This document shows, in pieces, positions 3,853-61,030 of a stretch of 64,000 bases of DNA. Location of the stretch: positions 186,001 to 250,000 of the forward strand of contig JAPLNI010000025.1 of NCBI GenBank assembly GCA_026692865.1, read 5' to 3'. Each line of letters starts with the position of its first letter. Position 1 is the stretch's first letter. The position numbers and the translations under genes are program-made. This DNA comes from Planctomycetota bacterium. GTDB lineage: Bacteria; Planctomycetota; Planctomycetia; Pirellulales; Pirellulaceae. The notes below the pieces were generated by a model. That model was not told where the DNA came from. It did no database searches and worked only from the letters and a program-made list of their open reading frames with translations.

Positions 3853-3912
3853 ATAGACTGCTTCCGAATTTCGAGACACGCATACTTCATCTGGTCAAAG
3901 CAATAGAATCCA

Positions 3913-8730: not shown

Positions 8731-8880
8731 GTAGTCGAGTCTCTCCGAGAGAGCAGGCTACGTGAGATCGGTTACGTGTTGGAAGTAGGTGTCGTAAGAC
8801 ATCTGAAGACTTCAGGCTGTACGGTTTTTTCCTGTCGAAAACTGAATTCTAACGAATTCAGCTACCCAAAACGAAGACTG
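8731..8880. repeat. hairpin repeat family, copy A (inverted orientation)
   Basis: Three hairpins in a row: GTAG...CTCTCCGAGAG...CTAC (8731-8761), AGGTGTCGTAAGACATCT (8787-8804) and CTGAATTCTAACGAATTCAG (8842-8861) followed by GCTAC. On the opposite strand the order and flanks match copies B, D and E, including a TCCAG...CGTTTT...GGTAGC lead-in (about 8862-8880). Confidence 0.75.
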
Positions 8881-22774: not shown

Positions 22775-25700
22775 ATGGCCTTCAATCGCCTTATTGCAGT
22801 CTTGCCTTGCTACTCGCTCGAGGACATCACCAAGGACCTTCGCGACCCTCAAATAGCTGAATTCCACGCAGCCTGGACAGTTTTGTGGCACCCTTGGATA
22901 CTCGCCAATTCAACAGGTATTCCCGAGTGGAAAAGATCCGACGGCTCCTCATTGGATGTCGAACAAGCCCTTGTTTTAGTCCCCTCGACAGCCTCTTCAC
23001 CGGTGGACGCCCCGGTTATGGAGCGAATGATTGTGCAGAATTGCACGATTGCAACGGCCAATGAATCACGAGCGACATCGCTCAGCAGCGTCTTTTCCGC
23101 CATCGACGAAAACAATTCCAAGGATTCCGAATCCGTTCCTGTGAATCAGCTACAGGCTCTTGAGACATTTATTGAACTGCCCCTACCGGTCGCAACTCCT
23201 CCTCTAATCGATCTGCACGGCCAACCACGAACAACGATCCGAGTCGAAGATTTCTACGCACTTGGACTGGTAACATTACTTGTCCAAGCACTCACTCGAA
23301 AGATTCATTACAGCAGCAATCTGGACGTGGTCCTCTTTGGAGAACAAGTCCGCACCGCGTCGCAAGCGTTTTTGAACCGCGATCCTCTTGAGTGCGAGCG
23401 GTGGCTTCAATCTTGCTTCGACCAACTCTCCCAAGAACGAGATCGTTACTTCTCTCAATCCGCTCATTTGGTCGACCTTACGCTGTTGGCTAAGACAACA
23501 CTCCAAGGTTCGCTCGATCGACAACTTTCTGCACAGCATCCACAGAACGTACTGGCCTCACCCGCGATCGTGGAAAGACTCAGTCAAACCAACGCGAGCG
23601 CGTTGCAAGTGCTCATCCAAGCCATCGCATCGGGACGCATCGCAATTGCTGGTGGTTCCGCAAACGAAGACAGTTTCGCTTCGTCTTCACAAGATAAAAC
23701 TGAAAGTCATTCAGCGAACGATGCTCCTATCGACTACGCACGCCAAGCACAGTCCACTCTCTATCGGCGAATTCATGATGCTCGTCAAAGCTATCTTCGA
23801 TTCGGAATAAATCCGCCAGAAGTATTTGCTCAGATGGAGCCAGGTATCCCTTGGGATTTCCCGACCTTTCTTACTAACGTTGGCTACAAAGCTGCCCTGC
23901 TTCACGCATTCACAGACGCTGACTACCCCGTTCCCACGCAATCGAAAATTGCATGGGAATCCTCCGACGGCAAGACGATCGACACGATCGCAAGTGGTTT
24001 CGTAGACGCATCGCTACCGCGCTCTGTCTTCAGCATCATATCCGATCTTGGAAAACAATTTGATTATCACCAGATACCAACGTTGGTCTTCGCACATTGG
24101 CCAGACCGATGCTGCGACGCGTTTCAAGATATCATAACTGCCGCACGGCGAACGTCAGCTTTGGGGCAATGGACAACTCTTACGAATTACTTCGAATCAA
24201 CCGGAAGTCCCTATTCCAATCAAAAGTTTACCGCCTCTCAATTCGCTCTACCCATCCAAAAAAGTCGCACTGAATTTCAACGCACTGCAACCTGGCAAAG
24301 TGCAATCCAGGTAAAGCGTGTTCAGCTTGAATCGACTCAGAACCTTGCCGTTGTCATCGATTTGATTCTTCGAGGCAAAACAACGTTCTCTGAGGAAGCA
24401 ACCAAGATGGCCACAGAAGTCGATCAGCAGGAGCTACTAACGCGATTTTCAAGCGATGAAGTACCCGCCGACACCTCTTCGCAAAGCGTTACTGTCCTGA
24501 AAGAAAAAGTTGGAACTGCGATCGCAAACTCCATTCCTCGCAACCCAAAAATCTCCGGCGCATCATCTGGTTTTTTAGTGCTTAATCCCCAATCGGGACC
24601 GCAACGAGTTTATCTAGCATCGATGAAACACACTCTCGACTCAACTGACTCGCAACGAATCTACGCCATCCACTCGCACGCAGCAGGAACCGACATGGTC
24701 GTCGACCTTCCACCGATGGGCGTATTGCAACTTTCATCACCTGATAAGTCGGCTGCAAGCCCCACACGCGCCAAGAACCCACTCGCGCAAGGTCCGCTGA
24801 TCGGTTCGAGTAGTTGGCTCCTTGCGAACGAATTTATCGAATGTCAAATCGACCCCAAGAGTGGTTACCTCCGCAGTTTGATGGTAGCCCGCAAACGAGG
24901 TGGCAAGCTGAGCGGAATGCCTGCGATCGCGATTGATAAACCAAGCCTCACCGCAGCGTCTCAGTACGCAACCCCATCCAAAGTTAGCAACCAGTACGTC
25001 TTTAACTCGCCTCTTCGCGCAACAATCATCAGTCGTGGCGAACTTGCTCACGAAGGAAAACGCTACGGGACATTTACCGCTGAATACACACTCTGGCGAG
25101 GTGCTCGACATGCAGACATATCTGTCAGCTATACTCTCGACAGCGGACTGGCTACTTCCGAAAGCGATTCTCTATGGAATCTCGCGCCCGTATGGAGAAC
25201 GGCGTGGCCTAGCCCCACAACAACCATCTCAACATGGATTCATGGTGCAAAGACGAAAGCACAAGCAGCCAAGTCGGATGGGCATCAGTTTTATGCTCCA
25301 GACCTCATTGAACTGGATGACGCCGAACATCGACTTTACATAACATCAGGCTGTTCCCCGATCCATCGCCGAGTCGACTCACTGTTTTTGGAAACGCTTG
25401 TCCCGATGATAGATTCGCGAACGGGCTCTCATTCATTTCGATTAGGCATGGACTGGCCAAGACCTTATCAAACGTTCCTCGAATCACTTGACGAACCGTG
25501 GATGGTAGCGGATGACCTGGGGACATTTCAGTCGGGTGGAAGCTTGTGGATGGTTCAAGTCAACCAACCCAACGTGCGGCTTGCATGCCAGAAGCTTCTA
25601 CACGACAGCAACTCCAAACCCAATGGTATACGTCTGATGATTCAAGAGACCCACGGCAAGTCCATCAAGAGCAAACTGTCTTTCTACCGAGATGCACTTG

Positions 25701-25825
25701 TTGCAACTAAAGTTCAAATTGATGGCACCGCTATCGAATCGCTCGAAATCCATTCAGGCGAGGTCACTCTCCCAGTCACCGCCAACGAATGTGGATTTGT
25801 GGATATTGGCTTTACCACAAATTAA
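22775..25825 (+). CDS. GH38-like (alpha-mannosidase-type) protein
   Basis: A 1016-residue protein without a signal peptide. The middle region (FGINPPEVFAQMEPGIPWDFP, FLTNVGYKAALLHAFTDADYP) and the C-terminal beta region (EFIECQIDPKSGYLRSLM, then RGELAHEGKRYGTFTAEYTL) follow the layout of GH38-type enzymes. The N-terminal part (LIAVLPCYSLEDITKDLRDP) lacks the HxD metal motif expected at the start of an active GH38 domain, so activity is uncertain. It reads away from pilM, sharing the upstream region. It might act on glycans or glycosides in the cytoplasm. Family assignment is moderate. Confidence 0.5.
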   Translation: MAFNRLIAVLPCYSLEDITKDLRDPQIAEFHAAWTVLWHPWILANSTGIPEWKRSDGSSLDVEQALVLVPSTASSPVDAPVMERMIVQNCTIATANESRATSLSSVFSAIDENNSKDSESVPVNQLQALETFIELPLPVATPPLIDLHGQPRTTIRVEDFYALGLVTLLVQALTRKIHYSSNLDVVLFGEQVRTASQAFLNRDPLECERWLQSCFDQLSQERDRYFSQSAHLVDLTLLAKTTLQGSLDRQLSAQHPQNVLASPAIVERLSQTNASALQVLIQAIASGRIAIAGGSANEDSFASSSQDKTESHSANDAPIDYARQAQSTLYRRIHDARQSYLRFGINPPEVFAQMEPGIPWDFPTFLTNVGYKAALLHAFTDADYPVPTQSKIAWESSDGKTIDTIASGFVDASLPRSVFSIISDLGKQFDYHQIPTLVFAHWPDRCCDAFQDIITAARRTSALGQWTTLTNYFESTGSPYSNQKFTASQFALPIQKSRTEFQRTATWQSAIQVKRVQLESTQNLAVVIDLILRGKTTFSEEATKMATEVDQQELLTRFSSDEVPADTSSQSVTVLKEKVGTAIANSIPRNPKISGASSGFLVLNPQSGPQRVYLASMKHTLDSTDSQRIYAIHSHAAGTDMVVDLPPMGVLQLSSPDKSAASPTRAKNPLAQGPLIGSSSWLLANEFIECQIDPKSGYLRSLMVARKRGGKLSGMPAIAIDKPSLTAASQYATPSKVSNQYVFNSPLRATIISRGELAHEGKRYGTFTAEYTLWRGARHADISVSYTLDSGLATSESDSLWNLAPVWRTAWPSPTTTISTWIHGAKTKAQAAKSDGHQFYAPDLIELDDAEHRLYITSGCSPIHRRVDSLFLETLVPMIDSRTGSHSFRLGMDWPRPYQTFLESLDEPWMVADDLGTFQSGGSLWMVQVNQPNVRLACQKLLHDSNSKPNGIRLMIQETHGKSIKSKLSFYRDALVATKVQIDGTAIESLEIHSGEVTLPVTANECGFVDIGFTTN

Positions 25826-26197
25826 GCATGGATTCCGAGCTCGTCGTGGCGAGTACCAAAATCAGCCCTCCACCATTGCTTTCCTGGTCAAAAAACAACG
25901 CAGAGTCGAATTTATATGGCGAGGGATATAATGCTGAGACGTCCCTCTAGTGCCTCAGGCTCAATTCAGGAAAAAATTGTGTGAAGAGCGTTTTAATCCG
26001 CCACCTTGAAGCTTGCGATTAGTGCTTTGTCCAGATTGAAAATTGTCCAACTCAATAATTGGTGTAGCTGAATTCGTCAGAATTCAGATGTCGATGAAAA
26101 CAATGGCAACAGCTGATGTTTTCAGATGTCGTAAGACATCTACTACGAGCACAAATACCGTTTTTCATCTGGACGAAGCACTAGCCAGAAATCTCAA
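25826..26197. other. intergenic region with repeat copy B
   Basis: This 372-base gap between two convergent genes consists largely of the MITE-like element at 26017-26186; nothing else is recognised. Confidence 0.6.
26017..26186. repeat. MITE-like element, copy B, with terminal inverted repeats
   Basis: The left end TAGTGCTTTGTCCAGATTG (26020-26038) and the right end CATCTGGACGAAGCACTA (26166-26183) are inverted copies with one mismatch over 17 bases. Inside are the hairpins CTGAATTCGTCAGAATTCAG (26068-26087) and AGATGTCGTAAGACATCT (26124-26141). No protein is encoded. Confidence 0.8.
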
Positions 26198-27019
26198 CTA
26201 ATGAGCTGTCCAGCCAGCGTCGACTGTTAAAAGGCTGCCGGTGGTATAGCTGCTGGCGGGGCTCGCGAGATAGATGGCGGCGCCTTGGATTTCCTTCAGC
26301 TCACCCCAACGCTTCATGGCGGTCAAACCGAGAATCTGCTGTTTCGCCTGCTCGGAATTGGCGATAGGAAGATTGATCTCAGTCAAAAAAGGCCCCGGAC
26401 AAATCGCGTTGCAAGTAATCCCGTGTGGAGCAAGCTCTAGCCCCAGCGTTCGCGTCATTTGAACGATGGCTCCTTTGCTGCTCGCGTACGAACTTCTATC
26501 GGGCAGCCCGACCACGCCCAAAGCACTCGAAATGTTGATGATTCGACCGTATCCAGCTTGCTTCATCGACGGAACGACTGCTTTACACGCATTCCAAGTT
26601 CCGTAGACATTTGTTTTCATGACTTGATCAAATTGATCGTGAGTCAAAACCTCGATGGGAGCTCGAATGTTGATTCCTGCGCTGTTGAGCAGGATATCAA
26701 TTTTGCCCCATCGATTCATGGCAAAAGCCACCGCGCGCTCGAGCGAATCCGGCTCCGTCACGTCTGCCTCAAATCCCAAGGCATCGACTGAGAATTTTTC
26801 CGCGACCGCTTTCGCTGCGGCGGTACACTCGGCTTCGTGACGACTCAGCAGTAGCAACGACGCTCCCGCAGAAGCGAGTCCTGCTGACATGGCCAAACCG
26901 AGTCCCTTGGATCCGCCCGTGACGACAGCCACATGCCCAGGCATCTGGAATTGTTGAATCCCGGGCAGTTCAGATATCCCCAGATCAGAAAGCCCCAGTA
27001 TGCCGTGCGAGCCACTCAT
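26198..27019 (-). CDS. short-chain dehydrogenase/reductase
   Basis: A classical SDR of about 273 residues. The NAD(P)-binding motif is TGGSKGLGLA, followed by the NSAGIN motif, the catalytic Ser in ISSA, and YASSKGA with Tyr and Lys. The C-terminal part (NAICPGPFLTEIN, YTTGSLLTVDAGW) fits gluconate 5-dehydrogenase or similar sugar/polyol reductases; the substrate cannot be told. ATG at 27019 is preferred over the TTG at 27037. It follows infA on the same strand with a short gap and could be co-transcribed. Confidence 0.88.
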   Translation of the reverse strand: MSGSHGILGLSDLGISELPGIQQFQMPGHVAVVTGGSKGLGLAMSAGLASAGASLLLLSRHEAECTAAAKAVAEKFSVDALGFEADVTEPDSLERAVAFAMNRWGKIDILLNSAGINIRAPIEVLTHDQFDQVMKTNVYGTWNACKAVVPSMKQAGYGRIINISSALGVVGLPDRSSYASSKGAIVQMTRTLGLELAPHGITCNAICPGPFLTEINLPIANSEQAKQQILGLTAMKRWGELKEIQGAAIYLASPASSYTTGSLLTVDAGWTAH

Positions 27020-27066
27020 CGGACACTCAGTTCGCAAAAGTGTAGATTAATTATTAGTGCAGATTT

Positions 27067-28582: not shown

Positions 28583-28709
28583 CCCCGCGTTAGCGAGACT
28601 TTCCTGTCTCCGCATCCGTCCATTACCCGGTCTGGTAAATCCTGATCCGGTGGCGTCAGCCAACGGGCACTCACTTTCGGGGCTTTAGAATTTTAGAATA
28701 ATGAACGCT

Positions 28710-28773
28710 GAACAAGGAATGTCGAATAACGAAATATCATATGATTTCTTTCGAAATTCGACATTCCTTGTTC
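28710..28773. repeat. long inverted repeat
   Basis: GAACAAGGAATGTCGAAT (28710-28727) is exactly complementary to ATTCGACATTCCTTGTTC (28756-28773); the inner part (AACGAAA...TTTCGAA) continues the pairing. Related TTCGATATTCGATATT follows. It lies between two genes read in the same direction, with no U run. Confidence 0.85.
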
Positions 28774-28868
28774 GATATTCGATATTGCCGAGCGGATCCT
28801 TTCTGGGATTCGCCCGGTAGGCGAACCCTACTTATGTAACTTCCTCTCCCTTAACGGATTTATGAATC

Positions 28869-35762: not shown

Positions 35763-35896
35763 GGCTAGTGCTTTGTTCAGATTATGTTTTAGGGTAGCTG
35801 GAGTCGCCAGACGTGAGCGCGTCGAAGAAAAACCGAACTCTGGCGAGTCCGGCTACCATTGCCAACCCTGATTTTGAATATTGACAAAGCACTGGC
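35763..35896. repeat. MITE-like element, copy C, with terminal inverted repeats
   Basis: Left end GGCTAGTGCTTTGTTCAG (35763-35780) and the inverted right end, read on the other strand as GGCCAGTGCTTTGTCAAT (up to 35896). Inside, GTAGCTGGAGTCGCCAGA (35794-35811) faces TCTGGCGAGTCCGGCTAC (35839-35856); these pair at 16 of 18 positions. Confidence 0.8.
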
Positions 35897-52140: not shown

Positions 52141-52285
52141 AAACTTTGTTGAGTCTTGCCTTTTTTGGTAGCTGAATTCGTAAGAATTCAGACCCCGGTA
52201 GCAACATCGTTGAAAGCAATACGCTTCAGATGTCTCACGACATCTGCTACGAACCCTATCTTTTTTGTTTGAATAAGGCCTCAAT
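52141..52285. repeat. hairpin repeat family, copy D
   Basis: CTGAATTCGTAAGAATTCAG (52172-52191) after GGTAG, and CAGATGTCTCACGACATCTG (52227-52246) followed by CTACGA. Lead-in ACTTTGTTGAGTCTTG has some likeness to the end of copy B. Element ends are not certain. Confidence 0.7.
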
Positions 52286-55504: not shown

Positions 55505-56030
55505 TTCGGATTACCTTTTCGTGAACAAAACAATGATGATTTTCTCGAGTATCCACCCGGATCGAAAAAATAGATATTTCAACGGAGAGACTTCCTGCGT
55601 TCGAGAGTAACTCGTCTGATTACTCGGCACAATCATAAAATTCAGCAGAAATTCACTAGTCTTCACGGGGCCCCATGAAGAATGGTTTTTTCATGAAAAA
55701 AGCTTCGCTTGGCAAGCGATTGCAAAGCCGCTATTCGGCCTTAATGGCTAGTAAGTCGCCTTTATTTTGCGCGATTTTTGTTACTAGCTGCTTGCCTTGA
55801 AAAGAATTTTTTGGATTTTTTTCTGACCGGGGAAGCGAAGCGGTTGTCTTGTCAAGCCCTGAGCCGATGGCGCTAGCCACGGGTGACACGCGGCGCTCAA
55901 AGCTGGCGTTGTTGGGCAAATTAGCGGGGGGAACCCGGAGCTAGCGCCCACGGCTCAGGATTTTCAGATTGATATGTTCGTGGGAAGGCCTTATTCGGGA
56001 ATTGGCGGGAGCTCGTTATGCTATGCAGGC
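55505..56030. other. intergenic region before purC
   Basis: The 526 bases contain the promoter side of the PEP-CTERM gene and the repeat at 55858-55960. A palindromic GGGGCCCC (about 55667-55674) and an A/T-rich stretch follow. No gene is supported. Confidence 0.45.
55858..55960. repeat. 103-bp element with inverted ends, left of purC
   Basis: Ends: CCTGAGCCGATGGCGCTAG (55858-55876) and, inverted, CTAGCGCCCACGGCTCAGG (about 55940-55958), matching at 17 of 19 positions. It is homologous over its whole length to the inverted copy at 56969-57070. Confidence 0.85.
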
Positions 56031-56933: not shown

Positions 56934-56968
56934 CTGAGCCGATGGCGCCAGTGTCGCAAACCTCAAGT
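56934..56968. repeat. partial repeat end next to purC
   Basis: CTGAGCCGATGGCGCCAG at 56934 is one end of the same element family, without a full partner. It directly precedes the full inverted copy. Confidence 0.7.
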
Positions 56969-57070
56969 CCTGAGCCGTGAGCGCTAGCTCCGGATTACCC
57001 CCGCTAATTTGTTCAACATGAAAAACTTTGATCGCCGCGCGTCACCCGTGGCTAGCGCCATCGGCTCAGG
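56969..57070. repeat. 102-bp element with inverted ends, right of purC
   Basis: Ends: CCTGAGCCGTGAGCGCTAG (56969-56987) and CTAGCGCCATCGGCTCAGG (57052-57070). Read on the minus strand it follows the left copy (55858-55960) closely, with a variable middle stretch of about 20 bases. Short frames through it have no independent support. Confidence 0.85.
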
Positions 57071-59662: not shown

Positions 59663-60904
59663 ATGAGACGCCGTGTCGTCGTGACGGGCATGGGCTGCGT
59701 CACGCCCCTTGCTAACCAGGTAGATTTGCTCTGGGAACGCATCCTCGCTGGAAAAAGTGGAATTCACCCTCTTACGATTGTGGATACCACTCATCAGAAG
59801 GTGAAGTTCGGAGGCGACTGCGCGGACTTCGAGCCTGGCGATAGTGTCGAAGCCAAAGAGGTGAAGCGACTCGATCGTTTCGTGCTCTTTGCCATGCACG
59901 CTGCCAAACAGGCTGTGCTTCAAAGCGGAATTGATTTCTCGAAAGAAGACAGTTACCGATGCGGCGCGATTCTCGGCTCGGGTATCGGTGGTTTGAACGA
60001 AATTGAAGAGCAGATGTTTAGGCTCTTTAGTAAAGGTCCCGACCGCGTTAGTCCATTCACCATCCCCAAGATGATGCTCAACGCCGCTGGCGGGAACGTG
60101 GGGATCGCATACGGTCTTCGTGGCCCTAACTTTGCGGTTGCAACTGCGTGCGCTTCATCGAATAACGCGATGGGTGATGCTCTCAAGGCGATCCGCTACG
60201 ATGAAGCGGACGTGATGGTCACTGGGGCTTCGGAAGCTGCAATCACCGCGATCGGTGTTGCCGGTTTTTCAAACATGAAAGCTTTATCGACACGCAACGA
60301 TGCACCCGAGAAAGCTTCGCGACCCTTCGACGCAGACCGCGACGGCTTTGTGCTAAGCGAAGGATGTGGCGTCTTGGTATTCGAGGAACTCGAACACGCG
60401 AAAACTCGTGGGGCCAATATTTTAGCTGAGATTATTGGATACGGCGGCTCCTGCGATGCAGGGCACATCACGGCTCCGGATGCAGAAGGACGCGGAGCAA
60501 GTCGAGCAATGCTAAACGCACTACGAGATGCATCCGTCGATGCCAGTGCGGTCGACTATATCAACGCTCACGGCACCAGTACGCCGCTAGGTGACAAAGC
60601 CGAAACCATCGCAGTGAAGTCGGTCTTTGGAGAATCAGCCCGCAGAGTTGCAATATCCAGCACGAAAGGTGCCCTAGGACACGCGCTGGGTGCAAGCGGA
60701 AGTATCGAGTTGATTCTATCGATTCTTGCTTGCCAGAAGGGAGTTATTCCGCCTACGATCAATCTGGAAACTCCCGATCCAGATTGCGACCTGAATTATA
60801 CTCCGCTCGTTCCAGGTGAGCGTGCCGTGAATATCGCAATGAGCAACAGCTTCGGGTTCGGTGGTCACAACGCAACGATCATCTGTAATCGCTGGAATGG
60901 CTAG
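59663..60904 (+). CDS. fabF: 3-oxoacyl-ACP synthase II
   Basis: A 413-residue FabF condensing enzyme. The catalytic Cys163 is in ATACASSNNAMGDA, and the His residues are in NAHGTSTPLGD and KGALGHALGASGS; NSFGFGGHN is the end loop. It follows acpP by 15 bases, closing the fatty-acid cluster. Confidence 0.97.
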   Translation: MRRRVVVTGMGCVTPLANQVDLLWERILAGKSGIHPLTIVDTTHQKVKFGGDCADFEPGDSVEAKEVKRLDRFVLFAMHAAKQAVLQSGIDFSKEDSYRCGAILGSGIGGLNEIEEQMFRLFSKGPDRVSPFTIPKMMLNAAGGNVGIAYGLRGPNFAVATACASSNNAMGDALKAIRYDEADVMVTGASEAAITAIGVAGFSNMKALSTRNDAPEKASRPFDADRDGFVLSEGCGVLVFEELEHAKTRGANILAEIIGYGGSCDAGHITAPDAEGRGASRAMLNALRDASVDASAVDYINAHGTSTPLGDKAETIAVKSVFGESARRVAISSTKGALGHALGASGSIELILSILACQKGVIPPTINLETPDPDCDLNYTPLVPGERAVNIAMSNSFGFGGHNATIICNRWNG

Positions 60905-60908
60905 TCCG

Positions 60909-61030
60909 ATTCGTCCAGATTGCGTTTTCGGTAGCTGAATTCGTAAGAATTCAAGTGTTGATGGAGATGCCATGGGATAACGAAGTCAGCAGAAGTCTTT
61001 TGACTTCTGCGACGAGCTCATTTGGCTTTT
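60909..61030. repeat. hairpin repeat family, copy E, reaching into the sigma-factor gene
   Basis: TGAATTCGTAAGAATTCA (60936-60953) after GGTAGC, and GCAGAAGTCTTTTGACTTCTGC (60989-61010). The lead-in TTCGTCCAGATTGCGTTTTC matches copies A and B. The right side overlaps the 3' end of the minus-strand sigma gene (stop at 60986-60988). Confidence 0.8.

Follow-up and report, generated by a model that had tools for sequence, protein, structure and literature searches.

Repeat copies in the window

The window, that is, the whole analysed stretch of 64,000 nucleotides (contig C25, positions 186001–250000), belongs to a genome of 5.55 Mb (G000). It carries five copies, A to E, of a hairpin-bearing repeat. 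Copy B is situated between an ORF in the forward direction (22775–25825) and an SDR gene in the reverse direction (26198–27037), copy A likewise lies between convergent ORFs, and copies A, B and E are all found between convergent genes. The features, in window coordinates, are as follows.

3889–3905, reverse strand: solitary remnant TATTGCTTTGACCAGAT resembling the terminal inverted repeat (TIR), without a REPIN; a decayed end from the TIR scan of the window
8785–8865, reverse strand: copy A, type-1 REPIN; TIR unconvincing (ends with 7 and 8 mismatches, near chance)
26020–26183, no strand assigned: copy B, IS630-type MITE of 164 bp (TA...TA) with a type-1 REPIN inside
26020–26036, forward strand: left TIR of copy B, TAGTGCTTTGTCCAGAT, 0 mismatches (17/17)
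26064–26146, forward strand: REPIN of copy B, GTAG-hairpin-spacer-hairpin-CTAC, DNA fold z −5.7
26167–26183, reverse strand: right TIR of copy B, 1 mismatch (16/17)
35766–35894, no strand assigned: copy C, IS630-type MITE of 129 bp with a type-2 REPIN (GTAGCTGGAGTCGCC...CTCTGGCGAGTCCGGCTAC)
35766–35782, forward strand: left TIR of copy C, 1 mismatch (16/17)
35794–35856, forward strand: type-2 REPIN of copy C, fold z −4.6
35878–35894, reverse strand: right TIR of copy C, 3 mismatches (14/17), TG in place of TA
52168–52250, forward strand: copy D (locus L044), type-1 REPIN; TIR not above chance
60931–61013, forward strand: copy E, type-1 REPIN; right TIR absent, decayed remnant of the left TIR at about 60902–60920

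The MITEs contain no coding frame. Copies B, C, D and E form stable single-strand folds (z from −4.6 to −6.2), and the fold of copy A is weaker (z −3.4). An Rfam search of the window gave no match, and a known structured RNA was rejected on this ground. An earlier note on this DNA had described B and C as having inverted ends and no coding frame; this description holds, with near-perfect ends of 17 bp, but the coordinates given there were 2–3 bp too wide on each side. The same note had credited copies A, D and E with the internal hairpins and part of the end sequence. The hairpins are indeed common to these three, but the end sequence is retained in E only, as the decayed left end, being near chance in A and not above chance in D. 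Since the REPIN family also exists without TIRs (see below), A and D are unsupported as members of the family defined by these ends.

Two other repeats are present in the window. A second dispersed palindromic repeat lies at 28697–28786 (arms AATAATGAACGCTGAACAAGGAATGTCGAATAACGAAA / TTTCGAAATTCGACATTCCTTGTTCG...); the sister genome G001 has about 50 matches to it. Inverted arms of 106 bp, 87% complementary, surround the SAICAR synthetase gene (55858–55963 and 56965–57070), and are possibly the borders of an invertible segment or a repeat pair.

Terminal inverted repeats and IS630 elements

The TIR TAGTGCTTTGTCCAGAT has five matches in the window with up to three mismatches, against 0.13 expected, and none of 100 shuffles reached five. 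In the whole genome, 45 matches with up to two mismatches were found, scattered across many contigs, and the reversed pattern, serving as a control, gave none. A chance origin of the ends was rejected by both the window shuffles and the reversed control. The MITE-like family with TIRs proposed in the earlier note is therefore real, and it has other copies beyond the window. The MITEs are 61–164 bp long. The internal hairpin GTAGCNGAATTCGTNAGAATTC is present in 142 genome copies (control 0), about three times the number of ends, which first suggested that core and ends are two separate things.

The same ends border IS630 genes. Remnants of IS630 orfA in the same genome start with TAGTGCTTTGTCCAGATTAAAAACTGGGGTT, and their left end is common with the MITEs over about 30 bp. 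TIRs at C57:139254, C57:185956 and C51:109734 border ORFs that encode the N-terminal region of a transposase of the IS630 type (MNKKHIVTLTDQQRETL...), and the transposase protein matches IS630 helix-turn-helix families. All three IS630 copies of the assembly are broken, one of them, 635 bp in length, retaining both ends; the family may be immobile in this genome, since no copy is unbroken. Relatives from the same family and order harbor full IS630 elements of about 1.2 kb, encoding orfA (wHTH) and orfB (DDE_3). The intact elements are 1239 bp long, with ends TAGTGCTTTGTCAGG related to the MITE ends and with CTAG flanks, and their orfB gives an NCBIfam IS630 match of 146 bits (cut-off 100). In these relatives, orfA and orfB overlap at the run AAAAAAAC (L124, 1900–1960), a slippery A-run and a likely frameshift site.

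The right end of a relative's IS, TAGTGCTTTGTCCAGATTAGATTTTTGGGTAG, encodes the terminal residues of orfB (LYPKI and the stop) and agrees with the MITE right end up to GTAG. In a Pirellula assembly (L088), the right end TAGTGCTTTGTCCAGATTAGATTTTTGGGTAGAG encodes the orfB terminus ...LKSLYPKI and the stop. The MITEs follow the IS right end to GGGTAG and the IS left end to about CTGGGGTT, retaining about 28–32 bp from each. Because both IS ends are matched, the MITEs look like internal deletion products that have kept the two ends. The shortest copy, L005, consists of 61 bp with perfect ends and no REPIN. That the elements are non-autonomous and share their ends with an IS, as the earlier note had suggested, is thus borne out, and the search of the genome for such an IS, which the note had advised, led to the three broken copies.

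Structure of the REPIN core

The type-1 body is 83 nt long and comprises two inverted REP palindromes, each tagged with GTAG. Ninety core copies were extracted and compared in register, and 57 of them align gap-free. The copies were selected by hairpin 1, which biases the conservation of that hairpin and leaves hairpin 2, the spacer and the TIRs unaffected. Hairpin 2 is located at +59 in 57 of the 90 copies and mostly within a few nucleotides of this position in the remainder. The GTAG columns, 5′ of the hairpin according to both pairing and fold, have a conservation of 0.95–0.98. Among the gap-free copies, conservation climbs sharply near GTAG and drops after CTAC, 83 nt further on, and the identity of hairpin 2 between copies is 0.78–0.85. 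The type-1 hairpins feature a common frame, GTAGC-stem-loop-stem, in which the stems are different but complementary, as in REPs.

Where IS630 ends are kept, they start 28 nt ahead of GTAG on one side and 18 nt past the core on the other. In fixed register, 25 of the 84 copies with a clear hairpin 2, copy D included, have no TIR above chance on either side; copy A stands outside this list. In the 14 of the 57 gap-free copies that are without ends, the TIR columns are at chance pairwise identity (0.27/0.25), and hairpin 2 and the spacer are kept at pairwise identities of 0.81 and 0.46, respectively.

REPINs and RAYTs in related genomes

Type-1 REPs were found in 29 of 241 genomes, representing 14 of the 68 genera of the family, with a maximum of 239 copies (G278). 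At the great majority of the 29 type-1 loci inspected outside the studied genome, the best TIR match is at chance, with 7–10 mismatches. Two genomes with 49 and 29 type-1 REPs (G010 and G021) contain no IS630 end of the TAGTGCTTTGTCCAGAT type at one mismatch or fewer. The internal hairpins, taken in the earlier note as part of the MITE, are instead a separate GTAG-tagged REPIN family existing without these ends both here and in many genomes. A REPIN with the type-1 spacer plan lies in another outer palindrome (TAGTGCCCAGGCACAATTTAA...) at L326 (G204:C197), possibly a related IS630 shell.

Other Pirellula assemblies have exactly the same end around different palindromic cores, namely type 2 (as in copy C), type 3 (CAATTGTCCTCAATTG) and type 4 (GAGCCGCAGGCGCTAGC). 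The GTAG in the IS right end (...TTTTTGGGTAG) is the exact starting point of the cores of types 1 and 2, and those of type 3 start further inside. In Pirellula Tobar2m-G36, the type-3 REP GTAGARCGATTGTCCTCAATCGYTT directly flanks an intact gene for a REP-type transposase of 232 aa, which matches NCBIfam REP_Tyr_transpos with an E-value of 7.5e-13, below the curated cut-off. Judging from the sequence, at least one of the core types goes with a REP-type (RAYT/TnpA_REP) HUH transposase. Among the REP loci read in this genome, eight consist of two type-3 REPs with a 3-nt spacer within IS630 TIRs, and 11 type-3 loci have no TIR, the spacer being 73 nt in most of them. Hence, the repeat belonging to this RAYT is found on its own as well as inside the IS630 shell. 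Four further loci of Tobar2m-G36 (L109, L120, L284 and L300) show IS630-type MITEs end to end, the edge CTAG of one apparently being the target for the next.

A search for RAYTs with type-1 or type-2 REPs at their flanks gave none in the studied genome, its sister or three Pirellula genomes, and so the independent RAYT mobility of these two types is proposed from their structure and distribution. The studied genome has five regions with Y1/RAYT-type transposases (L036–L040). Of these, flanking palindromes distinct to the region are visible at L036 and L038, those of the L038 RAYT gene being type-4-like REPs (palindrome CCCTGAGCCGATGGCGCTAGCCACGGG). These genes were considered as the source of the type-1 core and rejected, none of the five regions carrying such a core.

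Target sites and empty sites

Target preference was scored on 27 end pairs, a few of them being alternative pairings at the same locus; C precedes TA in 19 of the 27, and G follows TA in 19 as well. The preferred target, as read from these ends, is C-TA-G. A preference for CTAG is known for IS630. TA is found at both element ends, where a TA duplication and a terminal TA look alike in sequence.

Filled and empty sites were compared with the sister genome G001, a member of the same genus that is about 80–87% identical and has diverged intergenic DNA. For L030, the joined flanks align to G001 in one piece over the junction, and the element is absent there; this is the only site with a clean alignment across the empty junction. 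For L015, L028 and L025, the lengths are compatible with an empty site in G001, but the DNA is diverged. The alignments of L017 and L029 were not usable, and these loci lie outside the comparison. Copy C is absent from the orthologous interval of G001, which holds unrelated DNA, and the interval orthologous to copy B is at a rearrangement. Element/empty-site pairs, which the earlier note had advised looking for in related strains, thus occur, one of them clean.

The 61-bp shell L005 (1500–1561) is REPIN-free, and its orthologue (G001:C330:6400–7250, L265) is a full-size element that has decayed but contains a REPIN. This pair was rejected as proof that the REPIN was excised and is suggestive only, the ends of L005 being perfect and the sister orthologue decayed. 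The difference may reflect REPIN loss or replacement, and the shell is possibly a deletion product. Empty sites for REPINs alone were sought in the sister species as well, and no junction was clean enough to prove a REPIN-only insertion; the tests yielded two absences (L070 and L050) and three shared ancient copies (L189, L186 and L147).

Origin of the shelled REPINs

Ends identical to those of IS630 copies, nesting, a single REP family with and without the shell, varied cores and filled/empty sites can all be read from the DNA itself. Copies B and C are very probably IS630-derived MITEs with REPIN cargo, likely moved by IS630 in trans, and the REPINs would have spread shell-free too. In the proposed mechanism, the IS630 transposase of a full IS would act in trans on the shells, cutting at TA. 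The REPIN would be carried along, shell and REPIN most likely moving as one unit, and REPINs would also spread without shells, presumably by means of RAYT. The assignment of a transposase to each copy is an inference, as is the way in which the REPIN came to lie in a shell, either inserted by RAYT or left in place by an internal deletion around it. The start of type-1 and type-2 cores at GTAG would fit RAYT insertion at GTAG; type 3 breaks this rule.

The pattern might be attributed to a single MITE family, in which the hairpins are the MITE body and the TIR-free copies are old MITEs with decayed ends and selected hairpins (e.g., RNA terminators or stabilisers between convergent genes). The surroundings of copies A, B and E, the conservation of hairpins above that of spacers and the decay of the TIRs, which in many copies is continuous and at a fixed distance from the core, agree with this explanation. 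However, the spacer survives in TIR-free copies (identity to the consensus of 0.59, against 0.70) with the TIR at chance, which argues against simple ageing, as this would erase the spacer together with the ends. In three orthologous TIR-free pairs, moreover, the REPIN diverges roughly like the flanks (alignments counted by hand, small n), the loci inspected in other genera are REPs with TIR matches mostly at chance, and the shelled and shell-free forms in Tobar2m-G36 differ in the spacer. We consider a single MITE family unlikely. An ordinary REPIN/BIME family with outer repeats that are part of a longer, IS-unrelated palindrome has a precedent in the REP dimers described by Di Nocera and co-workers in long palindromes without an IS link (PMC3733652), yet identical outer ends bound IS630 transposase genes in the genome itself and full IS630 elements in relatives, and one 61-bp copy consists of the ends without a REPIN. 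This makes such an origin highly improbable.

The remaining alternative concerns the way in which the nesting arose. A minimal IS630 MITE could be a preferred landing site for REPINs; RAYT would insert them repeatedly and independently at the GTAG in the right end of the IS, and this would account for several REP types in one register. The exact start of type-1 and type-2 cores at this GTAG, the different cores held by similar shells and the empty shell L005 with its perfect ends point in this direction. On the other hand, the type-3 core starts further inside, the fixed register within a type fits one capture followed by IS630-driven amplification, and the orthologue of the empty shell contains a REPIN, so that this shell may be a deletion product. 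Repeated landing is possible, if rather doubtful. For REPINs carried as cargo of IS630-derived MITEs, the broader reading is that two unrelated systems meet on one element: REPINs (HUH/RAYT, single-strand chemistry) would be repeatedly packaged in IS630 ends (DDE chemistry), and could spread on a foreign transposase and outlive the loss of their own RAYT. We regard this as quite possible and put it forward tentatively.

Relation to known systems and significance

RUP of Streptococcus pneumoniae and Correia/NEMIS of Neisseria are IS630-derived MITEs for which mobilisation in trans has been proposed (PMC2817692). The elements described here are similarly short and non-coding, with inverted ends common with an IS630 element and a TA target (PMC2817692). 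Unlike RUP and Correia/NEMIS, they enclose a recognisable REPIN, which belongs to another mobile system, and the REPIN family inside the shell varies among related genomes. With REPINs mobilised by RAYT (TnpA_REP), the cores share the GTAG tag and hairpin, the inverted doublet, a near-fixed length, more than 100 copies and a mostly intergenic location; type 3 flanks a RAYT gene, and the structure is that by which REPINs are defined (PMC3116915; PMC3733652). In contrast to typical REPINs, about half of the copies here bear IS630 ends, and types 1 and 2 were found without a cognate RAYT.

The closest parallel is in Anabaena variabilis, where GTAG-15 dimers lie inside TATAGGA...TCCTATA palindromes that were not assigned to an IS (Di Nocera et al. 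2013, PMC3733652). In both cases, a longer palindrome encloses the REP dimers and is seldom or never met without them, but the palindrome in our case consists of IS630 ends, and empty shells, remnants of the IS and filled/empty sites accompany it. REP dimers in anonymous palindromes were thus already known, and what is new is that an IS630 shell surrounds REPIN cores of different kinds; a search of the open-access literature gave no report of REPINs enclosed by IS630 ends.

In other respects, the repeats of the studied genome are of an ordinary kind. The prevailing view is that REPINs rely on a RAYT that is present in single copy and inherited vertically. Enclosed in an IS630 shell, they would gain a second way to spread, and the abundance of REPINs where no RAYT is recognisable would be accounted for. 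It also offers a sequence-testable explanation for the earlier 'REP dimers inside palindromes', which had been left without a cause, and IS630-shelled REPINs would provide a naturally occurring case for telling the mobility of REPINs apart from that of MITEs.
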